A DNA stretch of 64,000 nt, taken from positions 1-64,000 of the forward strand of contig WGNQ01000008.1 in NCBI GenBank assembly GCA_016124455.1, read 5' to 3'. The notes below the pieces were generated by a model that did not search any database, was not told the DNA's origin, and saw only the letters and a program-made list of their open reading frames with translations. Below, piece by piece: positions 40,204 to 48,091 of the stretch (positions within the stretch are counted from its first letter, which is position 1; every line of letters starts with the position of its first letter). The position numbers were made by a program, and so were the translations under genes. Source of the stretch: Sideroxydans sp. Its GTDB lineage: Bacteria > Pseudomonadota > Gammaproteobacteria > Burkholderiales > Gallionellaceae.

Positions 40204-41693
<1,490 letters not shown>

Positions 41694-41721: not shown

Positions 41722-43179
41722 TCAGTCCGGGATAATCGACCAGCCCGGTTTCAGTTTGGCCTGGTAGATGAAAGCGTGGTGCAGCAGGTATTTCATCCAG
41801 TGGCCAGCCAGCCCGATTTCACCAAAAGTCAGGTCAGTATCACGCCCATATTCCGGGTATTTTTCGAAGTCCGGTACGACCGGGAACACCGTCATGGTGG
41901 CGGCGGTGCCCTTGAAAAAGTCCGACCCGGTGGAGGCCACGCATGCTGCGCCCATTTCCGCCATTGATGCCGTATGAGTCGGTTTCTCGGCACCGTTGAG
42001 CATGTCGCGGATGCTCATGGCAACTGCTTTCGCCATGGCTGCCGAAGGCATCCCGGTTCTGGGGGGGGCCGGATTGATGGGCGTTCCATTTGCGCTTTGC
42101 ATCGGCTTGCTGATCAGGTGGGGCGGTGCGAAGGCGATGCCGACCGAGAAAATATTGCGGTAGGCCGGGGTCTGGTAGGTCTTGGGCCAGTCGTCGGCGC
42201 TCCATTCCAGGTAGGGGCGCGGCGTGTAATCGGCGTCCACCTTCATGAAACCATTGGGGGCGAAAATCTGGCTGGTGATGTCTTCGCCGGCCTTGTCGAA
42301 GGCCTTCAGTCCAACCCCGGCAAAGGGCGGGATCAGCATCGAGAAATCGAACTCCTGCTCATGGAAATTTCCGTCCATGGTTTCGTAATGAATCTTTCCG
42401 GCTTCGACTTTCTTCACGTGCGCGCGGGTAATCCATTCGATCCCGCGTTCGACCATCAGCGATTCGGCGAAAGTCTTGCCGTTGGTGATGTAGCCGCCAC
42501 GCTTGATATGCACGCCACCCATGCCAAAGTCACCCAGTTCGTACTCGTTGCTGAGCCAGATAATGCGGGCCTTGTCACGCACGCCCGCCTCGCGCAATAC
42601 ATGGTCCACATTGTAGATATATTCGAATGCTGCGCCCTGGCAGGTGCACATTCCGTGGCCCGTGCCAATGACAATCGTGCGGCGTTCGCCCGCACGCATG
42701 GCGTCGATCATGGTCTGCAGTTTTGCATTGGCTTCCAGCGCGTGGCTAGCGGTACAGACGGATACCGTATGGCCGTGCTCCGGACCCAGTCCTTCAGTCG
42801 CGCCAAAGTTCAGCTTCGGTCCGGTGGCATTGATCAGGAAGTCGTAGCTGATGTTTTCCTGCACACCTGCCTTGTCGGGATGGGTGTATTCGATGGTCAC
42901 GAACGGATTCGCATTCTCGGCGCTTCCTTCCGGGTTGATCGACAGCGCCTTGGCCTGACGGAAATTTACATGGGTCTTGCTGTACACCTCGGCCAGGTCA
43001 AAGGTGACTTGTTCTTCTTTCATCTGGCCGACACCTACCCAGATGTTGGAAGGTATCCAGTTCCATTTTGCGTTGGGCGATACAACGACGATCTCGTGCT
43101 GATTGCCTACCCATTTGTTCAGATACCTGGCGGCAGTATGCCCCGAAATACCTGCGCCCAGAATCACGACTCGTGCCAT
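41722..43179 (-). CDS. Second SQR-family flavoprotein (SQR-like 2)
   Basis: A 485-residue FAD protein paralogous to SQR-like 1. It starts with GAGISGHTAARYL and carries candidate redox cysteines C142 (SVCTASHA), C178/C180 (GMCTCQGAAFEY) and C413 (GAACVAS). It is about 60 residues longer, mainly through an insertion near residues 305-345 (YLEWSADDWPKTYQTPAYRN) and a longer tail. It may be another SQR type or use another sulfur donor such as a persulfide; a phylogeny would decide. An AGGAG site precedes the ATG, 75 bases after ybgE. Confidence 0.83.
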   Translation of the reverse strand: MARVVILGAGISGHTAARYLNKWVGNQHEIVVVSPNAKWNWIPSNIWVGVGQMKEEQVTFDLAEVYSKTHVNFRQAKALSINPEGSAENANPFVTIEYTHPDKAGVQENISYDFLINATGPKLNFGATEGLGPEHGHTVSVCTASHALEANAKLQTMIDAMRAGERRTIVIGTGHGMCTCQGAAFEYIYNVDHVLREAGVRDKARIIWLSNEYELGDFGMGGVHIKRGGYITNGKTFAESLMVERGIEWITRAHVKKVEAGKIHYETMDGNFHEQEFDFSMLIPPFAGVGLKAFDKAGEDITSQIFAPNGFMKVDADYTPRPYLEWSADDWPKTYQTPAYRNIFSVGIAFAPPHLISKPMQSANGTPINPAPPRTGMPSAAMAKAVAMSIRDMLNGAEKPTHTASMAEMGAACVASTGSDFFKGTAATMTVFPVVPDFEKYPEYGRDTDLTFGEIGLAGHWMKYLLHHAFIYQAKLKPGWSIIPD

Positions 43180-43254: not shown

Positions 43255-43530
43255 TCATCCGCGCAGAAACAGCAGCAGGCCTGCTGCCAGCAGCGGCCAG
43301 GCTACCCATGGGCCAAACAGGATGCGCCACGCTTTGTGCTCCGGGATGAACCCAACGCCATGCACGAAACCCGCGGAGACCCCGAGCATGACCAGCGACA
43401 GCAGGCCATGCCCGGCGTGCGCAAATGCACGGGGGTAGGTCAGGATCAGCCCGGCCAGGGCGATCGCCAGCAACAGCGAGATCATACGCGGCAACGTTGC
43501 ATAGATACCGCTGTGCGCCGGCATGGTCAT
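43255..43530 (-). CDS. ybgE: YbgE-type cyd operon membrane protein
   Basis: A roughly 91-residue protein with three predicted membrane segments and the signature GFVHGVGFIPE, which resembles GVIHGVGFRPQ of E. coli YbgE. The family accompanies cytochrome bd operons and its role is not settled. ATG 43530 overlaps the cydX stop as ATGA; an ATG four codons upstream is also in frame. Confidence 0.85.
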   Translation of the reverse strand: MTMPAHSGIYATLPRMISLLLAIALAGLILTYPRAFAHAGHGLLSLVMLGVSAGFVHGVGFIPEHKAWRILFGPWVAWPLLAAGLLLFLRG

Positions 43531-43649
43531 GGCTTGTCGCATGGCCCGTCATCCTTGGTTACACAGGCTTGAGCGTCGCATATCATGGTGTTGACGATGG
43601 CCAGCAGCACGGCCATCGAGACTCCCAGTATCCAGGCGAAATACCACAT
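43527..43649 (-). CDS. cydX: CydX small subunit of cytochrome bd
   Basis: A 40-residue single-helix subunit beginning MWYFAWILG, nearly identical to the CydX signature MWYFSWILG. CydX stabilises the haem b595/d centres of CydAB. The C-terminal half is unusual: three cysteines (C24, C29, C37) in MICDAQACVTKDDGPCDKP where E. coli CydX has none. An AAAGGAG site precedes the ATG, 15 bases after cydB. Confidence 0.93.
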   Translation of the reverse strand: MWYFAWILGVSMAVLLAIVNTMICDAQACVTKDDGPCDKP

Positions 43650-43664: not shown

Positions 43665-44804
43665 TTAATATGCCGATTTATCGTTGGCGTTGATGAAGGC
43701 TTCCGTGACCTTGCCTGACATTTTCTTGTACGCCCAACTGGTGTAGATGATGATCAATGGCAGGAAGATTATGGTTGCACCCAGCATCAGGCCCAGTGTC
43801 AGTTGCGATGACACGCTGTCCCATATCGTCAGGCTGGAACGTGGGTCGGTGCTGGAAGGCATGATGAACGGGAACAGCGAAACGCCTGCCGTGCCGATCA
43901 CCCCCAGCATGCTGACCGAAGAGCCGACGAAGGCGGTCAGCGGCTTGTCGAATTTCGCTGCGGCAATTGCCCATAGCCCGCCGAGGAAGGCGATTGCCGG
44001 CACCAGCATGGTGAGCGGGTATGCGCTGTAGTTATGCAGCCATGCGCCCGCTTCGGTGATCACTGTCTTGTCCAGCGGATTGGGCAAGGCATTGCCATCG
44101 ATGGCGCTGGTGATCACAAAGCCCTTGATGCCGTAGGCCAGCCAGACACCGGCCAGGGCAAAGGTAACCAGGGCCAGTGCACCGAATATCATGGAGGCGG
44201 TACGTACGCGGCGGTACACATCACCCTCGGTGCGGATCATCAGGTAGTTTGCGCCGTGCGCGGTGATCATCGTGGTGCTGACAATACCGGTGAGCAGGGC
44301 GAACGGATTGAGCAACTGCCAGAAGGTGCCGGTGTAGAAGCTGCGCAGCGTGTCATCGAAATGGAACGGCACACCTTGCAGCAGGTTGCCGAAAGCCACG
44401 CCGAAGATCAGCGGCGGTACCGCACCACCGACGAACAGTCCCCAGTCCCATGTCCTGCGCCATTTCGGGTTCTCGATCTTGCTGCGGTAATCGAAACCCA
44501 CGGGCCGGAAGAACAGCGCCCACAGCACTGCCAGCATCGCCCAGTAGAAGCCGGAGAACGCGGTGGCGTAGACCAGGGGCCAGGCCGCGAAGATGGCGCC
44601 ACCGGCGGTGATGAACCAGACCTGGTTGCCGTCCCAGTGCGGGCCGACGGTGTTGATCAGGATGCGGCGCTCCACGTCGGTTTTGGCGGCGAAGGGCAGC
44701 AGCGTGCCCACGCCCATGTCGTGGCCGTCCATGATGGCGAAGCCGAGCAGCAATGCGCCGACCAGTACCCACCAGATGATTTTCAGCGTTTCATAATCCA
44801 GCAT
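43665..44804 (-). CDS. cydB: Cytochrome bd ubiquinol oxidase subunit II
   Basis: A 379-residue integral membrane subunit with about nine segments, matching the length of E. coli CydB. The start MLDYETLKIIWWVLVGALL and the motif DGHDMGVGTLLPF are typical. With CydA it forms the bd oxidase, which reduces O2 to water with quinol electrons and, unlike haem-copper oxidases, keeps working in the presence of sulfide. It lies 14 bases after cydA. Confidence 0.96.
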   Translation of the reverse strand: MLDYETLKIIWWVLVGALLLGFAIMDGHDMGVGTLLPFAAKTDVERRILINTVGPHWDGNQVWFITAGGAIFAAWPLVYATAFSGFYWAMLAVLWALFFRPVGFDYRSKIENPKWRRTWDWGLFVGGAVPPLIFGVAFGNLLQGVPFHFDDTLRSFYTGTFWQLLNPFALLTGIVSTTMITAHGANYLMIRTEGDVYRRVRTASMIFGALALVTFALAGVWLAYGIKGFVITSAIDGNALPNPLDKTVITEAGAWLHNYSAYPLTMLVPAIAFLGGLWAIAAAKFDKPLTAFVGSSVSMLGVIGTAGVSLFPFIMPSSTDPRSSLTIWDSVSSQLTLGLMLGATIIFLPLIIIYTSWAYKKMSGKVTEAFINANDKSAY

Positions 44805-44818
44805 GGTTATCTCCTCGT

Positions 44819-46384
44819 TCAGATAGTGGCGGTTGCGGTTTTTTCGGCGTCATAGCGGCCGGTACCCAGGCTGCTGGGTCCCTTGCGCGAGAATTTCACC
44901 ATCAGGTACATCTCGATGACGAGCAGGCCGGTGTAGAACACGATGAAGCCGGTGAGCGACCCGTACAGGCTGCCGACCGACAGGCTGGAAGCCGACAGGT
45001 GGGTGGGCAGCACGCCGTAGATGGTCCACGGCTGGCGGCCGTATTCCGCCACGAACCAGCCCAGCTCGGCGGCGATCCAGGGTGTCGGGATGAACCAGAC
45101 CGCCCAGCGCAACAGCCAGCGTTGCTTGAAGAAGGTGCCGCGCACGGTGTGGTATAGCGACAGGGCAAACAGCAGGGCGAAAGCAAAGCCCAGTGCCACC
45201 ATCACGCGGAACGACCAGAACATCGGCGCTACGCGCGGTACGGTATCGTCTACCGCATGCTGGATCATTTCCGGCGTCGCTTTGGAAACGTCTTCGGTGT
45301 ATTTCTTCAGCAGCAGGCCGAACCCGAGGTCCTGCTTGTGTGCCTCGAACACTTGTTTGGCAGCCTCGTCTTCCTTGTTCTTGCGCAGTTCTTCCATCGC
45401 GCTCACGGCCAGCATGCCGGACTCGATACGGGTGCGGTTCTTCTCCTTGATCTCGGCGATGCCGGGGATTTCCTTGGTGACGCTGCGCGTGCCGATCAGC
45501 CCCATGACGTAGGGGATCTGCAGTTCGTAGTCGTTGCGCTGCGCCTTTTCATCGGGGATGGCGAACACATTGAACGCAGCCGGGGCCGGCTCGGTATGCC
45601 ACATCGCCTCCATTGCTGCAAGCTTGGTCTGCTGCGACTCGGAAATGGTATAGCCGGATTCGTCGCCGAGTACGATCACCGACAGTGCCGAGGCAAAGCC
45701 GAAGGCTGCGGCAATGCGGAAGGAGCGGCGCGCGAACTCAAGGTCGCGTCCCTTCAGGATGTACCATGCGGAGATTCCCAGCACGAAGACCGATGCGGTG
45801 ACGTAGCCTGCGGATACGGTATGTACGAACTTGGCCTGCGCAGTCGGGTTGAAGATCACATCCCAGAAGTTGGAGAGTTCCATGCGCATGGTGGTATAGG
45901 AGAACGTGGCGCCCACCGGATCCTGCATCCAGCCGTTGGCGATCAAAATCCACAGTGCCGACAGGTTGGAGCCGATTGCGGTGAGCACGGTGACCATGAA
46001 GTGTTGCCCCTTGGTCAATCGATCCCAGCCGAAGAAGAACAGGCCGATGAAGGTGGACTCGAGGAAGAACGCCATCAGTCCCTCGATCGCCAGCGGTGCG
46101 CCGAAGATGTCGCCAACGTAGTGCGAGTAATACGCCCAGTTGGTGCCGAACTGGAATTCCATGGTCAGCCCGGTGGTGACGCCAAGCGCGAAGTTGATGC
46201 CGAACAGCTTGCCCCAGAAGCGGGTCATGTCCTTGTAGACCTGCTGTCCGGTTACCAGGTAGGAGCCTTCCATGATGACCAGCAGAAAGGTCATGCCCAG
46301 CGTGAGCGGAACAAACAGGAAGTGATACATCGCGGTGACCGCGAATTGCAACCTCGAAAGGTCGACCAGTTCTGTGCTAATCAT
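44819..46384 (-). CDS. cydA: Cytochrome bd ubiquinol oxidase subunit I
   Basis: A 521-residue haem-carrying subunit. Haem-ligand histidine H21 lies in AMYHFLFVPLTLG, and the conserved YGRQPWTIYG motif is in the C-terminal part. The periplasmic Q-loop (about residues 255-385) is long, and the total length equals that of E. coli CydA (522), so this is the long-Q-loop type of bd-I rather than a short-loop CIO. It is 9 bases downstream of cydP. Confidence 0.97.
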   Translation of the reverse strand: MISTELVDLSRLQFAVTAMYHFLFVPLTLGMTFLLVIMEGSYLVTGQQVYKDMTRFWGKLFGINFALGVTTGLTMEFQFGTNWAYYSHYVGDIFGAPLAIEGLMAFFLESTFIGLFFFGWDRLTKGQHFMVTVLTAIGSNLSALWILIANGWMQDPVGATFSYTTMRMELSNFWDVIFNPTAQAKFVHTVSAGYVTASVFVLGISAWYILKGRDLEFARRSFRIAAAFGFASALSVIVLGDESGYTISESQQTKLAAMEAMWHTEPAPAAFNVFAIPDEKAQRNDYELQIPYVMGLIGTRSVTKEIPGIAEIKEKNRTRIESGMLAVSAMEELRKNKEDEAAKQVFEAHKQDLGFGLLLKKYTEDVSKATPEMIQHAVDDTVPRVAPMFWSFRVMVALGFAFALLFALSLYHTVRGTFFKQRWLLRWAVWFIPTPWIAAELGWFVAEYGRQPWTIYGVLPTHLSASSLSVGSLYGSLTGFIVFYTGLLVIEMYLMVKFSRKGPSSLGTGRYDAEKTATATI

Positions 46385-46393
46385 GCATCCTCC

Positions 46394-46576
46394 TCATGGT
46401 GTGGTTGTATTGCTGGTTAAGGGGTGCAGAATCGCATTGCCGACCTGTTCCGGCGTCAGCCTGCTCTCGTCAGGACCGCTGAAAAAAAGCCACCAGATAG
46501 CCAGCAAGCCGAGCAGCTTGATGGCCGTCACGATGGCGATCTTTCTTGCCAGGGGTTGTTCGGAAAAGAGCTTCAT
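46394..46576 (-). CDS. cydP: CydP-type small putative subunit of cytochrome bd
   Basis: A 60-residue single-segment membrane protein (MKLFSEQPLARKIAIVTAIK, then LLGLLAIWWLFFSGP), resembling the CydP family often found just before cydA. ATG 46576 is chosen because a GTGGA site precedes it. The predicted sigma54 transcription start (about 46602) falls after a longer in-frame TTG/ATG reading at 46606 would have begun. It is the first gene of the cyd unit, 9 bases before cydA. Confidence 0.75.
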   Translation of the reverse strand: MKLFSEQPLARKIAIVTAIKLLGLLAIWWLFFSGPDESRLTPEQVGNAILHPLTSNTTTP

Positions 46577-46612
46577 CTGCATTCCACGATTTTGTATTTG
46601 CGCCACCTTATA

Positions 46613-46629
46613 TGCAGTATGCGTGCCAA
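46613..46629 (-). promoter_or_regulatory. Sigma54 (-24/-12) promoter of the cyd-SQR unit
   Basis: The minus strand reads TTGGCACGCATACTGCA. The -24 GG (46627-46626) and -12 GC (46615-46614) are separated by exactly 10 bases, and the match to TGGCACG-N4-TTGCA has one deviation (CTGC for TTGC). Transcription would start near 46602, just before the cydP ATG at 46576. The adjacent divergent gene encodes a sigma54 activator. Confidence 0.85.
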
Positions 46630-46717
46630 TCGTTGCAGGTATTTGTTAATTTATTGTTATGGATATGTTTTATTTTTCATGTGGCGCTTTGGGTAGGGTA
46701 AGGAGAATTGCACTTAA

Positions 46718-46772
46718 GACAAAAATGGCAGTCAAATCTGTTAAAGTAAGCGCCTGAACTGTCATTTTTGTC
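46718..46772. promoter_or_regulatory. Long inverted repeat, probable activator (UAS) sites
   Basis: Two 15-base arms (GACAAAAATGGCAGT at 46718-46732 and ACTGTCATTTTTGTC at 46758-46772) are inverted copies with one mismatch and centres 40 bp apart. They lie about 115-170 bp upstream of the predicted sigma54 start of the cyd unit, the usual distance for enhancer sites. The right arm ends 11 bases before the regulator's own ATG, so autoregulation is possible. Confidence 0.6.
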
Positions 46773-46783
46773 AGGGTGGTTTT

Positions 46784-48091
46784 ATGGCCGATAACGCTAT
46801 AGCTGAATTGATGTCCTACCTCGATACGCTGCCCGAACCGCGTATCGTGATGGATCGCCATTACACCATTATCGGTGCCAATCGCGCCTACCTGGCCCAT
46901 TACCATGTAGGCGAATTGCCGGTTGCCGGACGGCGCTGTTACGAGGTTTCTCATCGCTTTAACCGTCCTTGCGACGAAGAGGGCGAGTCCTGTCCGCTGA
47001 AAAGCAGTTTGCAGAGCGGTCAGGCGCAGCGCGTGTTGCACATCCACCATACATTGCGCGGCGATGAGCACGTGGATGTGGAACTGACACCGGTTCGCGA
47101 TGCGCATGGCGAGATTGAATATTTTGTCGAGATGATTCACACCGTGCGGACTGCCAGCACCACAGCCAAGGGGGAGTTGCTGGTAGGCCGCTCCGTGGCT
47201 TTCAACCGGATGCTGGAGCAGGTAACGCGAGTGGCGCCATCGCAGGCGGATGTGCTGCTGCTGGGCGAATCCGGGACCGGCAAGGAGCTGGTTGCGCACG
47301 CGGTGCACAATGCCAGTCCGCGTGTGGGGGGGCCATTCGTGGCGGTGGATTGTTCCAGCCTGCCCGAGAATCTGTTCGAGAGCGAACTGTTCGGTTATGA
47401 AAAAGGCGCGTTCAGCGGTGCGAACCAGCGCAAACAGGGGCTGGTCGAGGCCGCCAGCGGCGGCACCTTGTTCCTGGATGAAGTGGGCGATATCCCGCTG
47501 GGGCTGCAGGTGAAACTGTTGCGGCTGCTGGAAACCGGCACCTATCGCCGGGTGGGCGGAGTGGAACCGTTGCGTTCCGATTTCCGCCTGGTTGCAGCGA
47601 CGCACCGCGATTTGAAAAAGATGGTTGCCGAAGGGACTTTCCGCCGGGACCTGTATTACCGCATCAGCACTTTCCCGATATTGCTGCCGTCACTGCGAGA
47701 ACGCATGGAAGACCTGCCATTGCTGATGGAAGCATTGCTCAAGCGCGTCAGCAGCGATCATGCACTGTCGATCCATCCCGCTACCTTGCTGTGCCTGTCG
47801 AAATACGATTTCCCCGGGAATATCCGCGAATTGCGCAACCTGATTGAGCGCGCGAGTTTGCTGGCAGATGGCGATGTGTTGCTGCCTGAGCATTTTCCCG
47901 ACCCGTGCGAAGAGAAGCTGGGGATACCGGACTCGATGCAGGAGTTCAGCGAGGTCATGACGCTGGAGGAGATGGAGCGCAGCTATCTGGAATGGCAGTT
48001 GCAGCACTCCGGGTTGACACGCAAGGAGCTGGCCGAGCGTCTCGGGGTGAGCGAGCGTACCCTGTTCAGGAAGCTCGGCAAGCTGGCATAA
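46784..48091 (+). CDS. fisR: FisR-like sigma54-dependent activator, probable sulfane-sulfur sensor
   Basis: A 435-residue bacterial enhancer-binding protein. It has a PAS-like sensor (about 12-125), an AAA+ domain (134-370; Walker A GESGTGKE 161-168; sigma54 loop GAFSGA 208-213) and a Fis-type helix-turn-helix ([18 protein letters not shown]). The sensor has cysteines at 52, 63 and 70, the same spacing as C53/C64/C71 reported as essential for sulfane-sulfur sensing in Cupriavidus FisR, which activates sqr. The loop has Ser instead of Thr (GAFTGA). It diverges from cydP-cydABX-SQR, which has a sigma54 promoter, so that unit is its likely target. Confidence 0.85.

Follow-up and report, generated by a model that had tools for sequence, protein, structure and literature searches.

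Divergent activators with regulatory, AAA+ and Fis-type domains are known from the FisR-sqr-pdo systems of Cupriavidus pinatubonensis and A. baumannii (A1S_1707-1711), where they act on sulfide:quinone oxidoreductase (SQR) targets with sigma54 promoters. FisR is reported to use three conserved cysteines to sense sulfane sulfur, joining them by disulfide and tetrasulfide bridges (PMC9774590). The A. baumannii protein lacks these cysteines, yet sulfide induces a sulfide oxidation operon there, preceded by a predicted sigma54 promoter, in a FisR-dependent manner; cydAB expression also rises with sulfide in this species, in E. coli and in M. tuberculosis, while FisR-dependence of cydAB is not reported for A. 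baumannii (PMC7315123).

The locus described here lies in a 64-kb stretch of DNA (hereafter, the window) and shares with the FisR-sqr-pdo systems a divergent activator of this domain composition, a predicted sigma54 promoter and an SQR target. Its activator also matches the three regulatory cysteines reported for Cupriavidus FisR; however, the target operon starts with cytochrome bd genes and contains no persulfide dioxygenase gene. Compared with cydABX operons under ArcA, FNR, CydR/ANR or Rex, it has the same oxidase genes, cydX and ybgE included, but a putative sigma54 promoter with enhancer-type operators takes the place of FNR-type or sigma70-like sites, none of which were found in the intergenic region. 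The physiology proposed for sulfide-induced cydAB, in which bd keeps working in sulfide and the quinone pool connects it with SQR, is the one proposed here as well, whereas in the three species named above cydAB is transcribed on its own, no sigma54 activator having been reported for it, and here oxidase and SQR genes apparently form a single operon.

Among open-licence papers, none was found that describes cyd as controlled by sigma54 or FisR, which does not prove absence, and cyd is not mentioned in two surveys of sigma54 regulons (PMC12316311, PMC4641369). The C. necator cydA2B2 genes together with rpoN mutations were considered as a prior case and rejected, as the rpoN mutations gave no increase in CO tolerance (PMC10164946).

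The putative sigma54 promoter and the probable cyd-SQR operon

The original prediction placed in front of the cyd genes a near-consensus sigma54 promoter that has a single mismatch and ten bases between GG and GC. The coordinates of TTGGCACGCATACTGCA bear this out: read on the minus strand from 46629 to 46613, it departs once from YTGGCACG-N4-TTGCW, with GG at 46627/46626 and GC at 46615/46614. No other site in the window comes within one mismatch of the sigma54 consensus. By itself the motif is weak evidence, because the 2.23-Mb genome contains 17 sites with ≤ 1 mismatch compared to 7 for a reversed control pattern, and its use as proof on its own was dropped. Its significance comes from position and conservation: TTGGCACGCATACTGCA lies within the 207-bp intergenic region between cydP and the activator gene, faces cydP and is found again in orthologous regions. 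Two perfect matches to the consensus are located elsewhere in the genome (C2:2424-2440 and C14:35648-35664).

Setting C as −12 puts the predicted +1 at 46602, the same start as had been proposed before. The accompanying claim that this start decides the cydP start codon held in part: an in-frame upstream GTG at 46606 is excluded by the predicted +1, but ATG codons at 46582 and 46576 both still fit. Of these two in-frame codons the one at 46576 is favoured in comparison with relatives, having an SD-like GGA and conserved first residues. The genome encodes rpoN (E 1.2e-62), which was also found in ten relatives. A scan of the intergenic region returned no sigma70-type promoter, and no FNR/ANR-like site (TTGAT-N4-ATCAA-like) with ≤ 2 mismatches was present from 46577 to 46783.

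The minus-strand genes from cydP through SQRb are separated by short gaps and the next downstream gene is convergent, so that cydP-cydA-cydB-cydX-ybgE-SQRa-orf54-SQRb are likely co-transcribed as one operon (Table 1). SQRb resembles a solved SQR over its full length, with redox cysteines aligned in SxCTVDHA, GASCFG and xxCxADMGD. The short orf54 is 76–85% identical in four relatives (L032-L035) and had no match in Pfam or NCBIfam. At another locus the genome encodes subunit I of a haem-copper oxidase, which makes bd an alternative oxidase.

Table 1. Features of the cyd-SQR locus, in window coordinates
Feature	Position	Strand	Remarks
SQRb, Acidithiobacillus ferrooxidans-type SQR, last operon gene	40204..41478	-	3sz0, E 2.2e-178
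orf54, conserved 54-aa ORF between the SQR genes	41529..41693	-	no family
SQRa, sulfide:quinone oxidoreductase-like flavoprotein	41722..43179	-	best solved relative 3hyv, E 8e-41
ybgE-like cyd operon gene	43255..43542	-	PF09600
cydX	43527..43649	-	PF08173, TIGR02106
cydB, cytochrome bd subunit II	43665..44804	-	TIGR00203
cydA, cytochrome bd subunit I	44819..46384	-	PF01654, E 7e-176
cydP, small subunit, first operon gene	46394..46576	-	NF045611, E 1.7e-12; start by comparison
Predicted sigma54 (-24/-12) promoter TTGGCACGCATACTGCA	46613..46629	-	predicted +1 = 46602
IHF-like site TAACAATAAATTA	46647..46659	-	between operators and promoter; suggestive only
Putative upstream operator B CTGCCATTTTTGTCTT	46716..46731	.	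2 mismatches; centre ~-122
Putative upstream operator A CTGACAAAAATGACAG	46759..46774	.	centre ~-165 from +1; 10 bp from activator ATG; conserved
FisR-like sigma54 activator	46784..48091	+	PAS_4, Sigma54_activat (AAA+), HTH_8 (Fis-type HTH)

The FisR-like activator and its candidate operators

The gene divergent from cydP encodes a protein whose PAS domain carries a three-cysteine motif (C52/H57/C63/C70). Its spacing, C-x4-H-x5-C-x6-C, was found in 134/134 collected homologues, H57 being invariant along with the cysteines; in C. pinatubonensis FisR the three cysteines are numbered C53/C64/C71. No second close homologue of this PAS domain was detected in the genome (89% complete). The sigma54-contact loop reads GAFSGA (residues 208–213; window 47405-47422, plus strand) in this activator and in three other cyd-linked homologues, and GAFTGA in most homologues. 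Identification as NifA, NtrC or NorR was rejected, the match being limited to the common AAA+ part and far below NCBIfam cut-offs. A regulator of Cupriavidus metallidurans CH34 with 53% identity and the same cysteine spacing is divergent from persulfide dioxygenase-like (PDO-like) and SQR-like genes, which is the FisR arrangement. Of the features of the FisR type, the window's activator has a PAS-type domain, a sigma54 AAA+ domain, a Fis-type HTH and three conserved cysteines, and it is divergent from sulfide oxidation genes, namely SQRa and SQRb.

An alignment of intergenic regions from relatives revealed a dyad, CTGNCA-N4-TGNCAG, two copies of which lie upstream of the promoter at a distance of 43 bp from each other (about four helical turns). 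Operator A is the sole perfect match in the 2.23-Mb genome to CTGNCANWWWTGNCAG, the AT-spacer form of the dyad. Centres near −122 and −165 are normal for enhancer sites, and we infer that the activator binds to both dyads. Nearly every cyd region has dyad pairs with a spacing of 41–43 bp, L150 being the clear exception, and these pairs score far above shuffles in a test that is partly circular, because the dyad was defined on those very sequences. The IHF-like site has one mismatch to WATCAAN4TTR; although present and aligned in close relatives, it was not significant against shuffles in AT-rich DNA.

Conservation among relatives and control loci

Conservation was assessed in a sample of 120 relatives, with the activator present in 30 genomes. 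Its closest homologues are divergent from cyd, and in several cases SQR genes then follow. A sigma54 motif with ≤ 1 mismatch pointed towards cyd in 13 of the 19 cyd regions scored. Once two contigs present twice had been removed, 17 distinct cyd loci with the activator remained. The motif was present in 12 of them when ≤ 1 mismatch was allowed, in 14 when the limit was ≤ 2 and in 16 when it was ≤ 3; on the opposite strand of the same loci none was found at ≤ 2 mismatches. At L150 the activator adjoins cydA, yet the sigma54 motif is missing. In a sample of 30 cydA loci from the order, a motif with ≤ 1 mismatch was present in 5/6 loci that have the activator beside them and in 0/24 without it (Fisher's test, 4e-5).

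Phylogenetically, the window's activator falls into a supported clade of 16 rows spanning Gallionellaceae, Sulfuricellaceae and Thiobacillaceae; cyd is the neighbour in 15 rows, and the remaining one lies at the end of its contig. Further afield, an annotated sigma54-type regulator in Pseudoalteromonas xiamenensis is divergent from cydP, cydAB (one CDS), cydX and ybgE, and a dyad with one mismatch is found in this region. SQR is the first divergent gene beside many relatives of the activator, and all 11 distant relatives from the same family and order that are divergent from SQR have a sigma54 motif (11/11). SQR and cyd neighbours were mixed in a class-level sample, with the promoter and dyads often retained.

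Many homologues adjoin cbb3-oxidase genes (ccoG in 64 cases, ccoN in 2). Those of Azonexaceae and Rhodocyclaceae (L106, L133, L142 and some 60 similar loci) are divergent from ccoG (FixG), and the sigma54-like motif at ccoG-linked loci is mostly weak or degenerate, e.g. CAGGCTCGCTTGTTGCA. In two Methylotenera loci (L092 and L151), ccoG and cyd are consecutive on the same strand, divergent from the activator, bringing both target types into one cluster.

A natural contrast comes from a single family of the order, in which four genomes (L212, L222, L226 and L230) have a relative of 28–32% identity with a cysteine-rich PAS domain beside cyd. The AAA+ domain of these regulators is degenerate and without the GAFTGA loop, the dyads are kept and rpoN is present; no sigma54 motif was found at their cyd loci. 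Judging from these few cases, the sigma54 promoter and the sigma54-contact loop appear to go together, and the degenerate regulator possibly now works with sigma70.

Collectively, the presence of rpoN, the divergent activator, the operator dyads, the conservation and the negative control support the original prediction of sigma54 control of cyd, which had been made from the promoter alone and named neither the activator nor the SQR genes of the operon nor a link to FisR. We regard it as very probable that the cyd operon is controlled by sigma54 through the divergent FisR-like activator, and its expression would accordingly be expected to depend on RpoN.

Proposed signal, alternative explanations and implications

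In the model that we favour, the sigma54 promoter would transcribe cydPABX-ybgE-SQRa-orf54-SQRb from ~46602, with the FisR-like activator bound to both 16-bp dyads, whose centres lie 122 and 165 bp upstream. The three conserved cysteines of the PAS domain would allow the activator to detect reactive sulfane sulfur in the form of persulfide or polysulfide derived from sulfide. Its AAA+ domain would then open the closed RNAP-sigma54 complex, a step in which the DNA may be bent at the IHF-like site. The two SQR-type enzymes would then transfer electrons from sulfide to quinone, and the bd oxidase would reoxidise quinol while the haem-copper oxidase is inhibited by sulfide. We put the probability of this model as a whole, a sigma54 switch that responds to persulfide and governs bd respiration along with sulfide oxidation, at roughly 0.7, on the basis of sequence comparisons. 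Points that speak against it are the GAFSGA loop in place of GAFTGA, the missing motif at L150 and the case of A. baumannii, whose FisR has no such cysteines and is not reported to control cydAB.

As relatives of the activator also adjoin cbb3-oxidase genes, we go no further than to infer that the signal is probably sulfide or sulfane sulfur; with ccoG or ccoN rather than sulfur genes as neighbours of these homologues, a broader cue, either respiratory or redox, may be what is sensed. Such a cue is at the centre of the best-surviving alternative, in which sigma54 and the activator control the operon as described, but the PAS cysteines and histidine sense oxygen, redox state or NO/CO/cyanide, perhaps via a metal or Fe-S site, making the system a general alternative-oxidase switch. 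The invariance of H57 together with the cysteines agrees with this, as do the prevalence of ccoG (and sometimes ccoN) among divergent neighbours of homologues and a Crp-type regulator gene adjoining an activator homologue in one relative. We nevertheless consider it unlikely, given that SQR genes are part of this operon and accompany members of the regulator family at other loci, and given that the closest characterised type, the three-cysteine FisR, responds to sulfane sulfur (PMC9774590).

Rather improbable, in our estimate, is a mixed arrangement in which sulfide increases expression through the sigma54 promoter and a weak sigma70 or FNR/ANR-type promoter provides basal microaerobic expression. 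Simple scans miss atypical promoters, and cyd operons elsewhere use oxygen regulators; against this, the intergenic region yielded neither a sigma70-like nor an FNR-like site. That TTGGCACGCATACTGCA is a chance match, with a sigma70 promoter that escaped detection driving cyd and with the activator gene as a bystander, would fit the fact that single matches are not rare in this genome, but is very improbable in view of the position and direction conserved across diverged intergenic regions, the coupling of motif and activator, the conserved operator pair and the failure to find a sigma70-like site in the intergenic region.

Returning to the persulfide-responsive switch, the locus reads as a variant of the FisR kind with a terminal oxidase placed in the sulfide operon. 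A broader extension is tentative and, on balance, doubtful: a large FisR-type family, united by one PAS cysteine motif and one dyad, may serve as a general sigma54 respiration switch under sulfide, its targets being bd oxidase, cbb3-oxidase genes, SQR or persulfide dioxygenase depending on lineage, with the degenerate GAFTGA-less descendant of one family keeping the cyd operator after promoter loss. The bd oxidase is known to resist sulfide. The locus would link sigma54 and FisR to cyd, bringing sulfide oxidation and a sulfide-resistant quinol oxidase behind one persulfide-type sensor. The arrangement suggests a direct respiratory switch upon the appearance of sulfide in a relative of iron oxidisers, and the pattern reaches across Beta- and Gammaproteobacteria.
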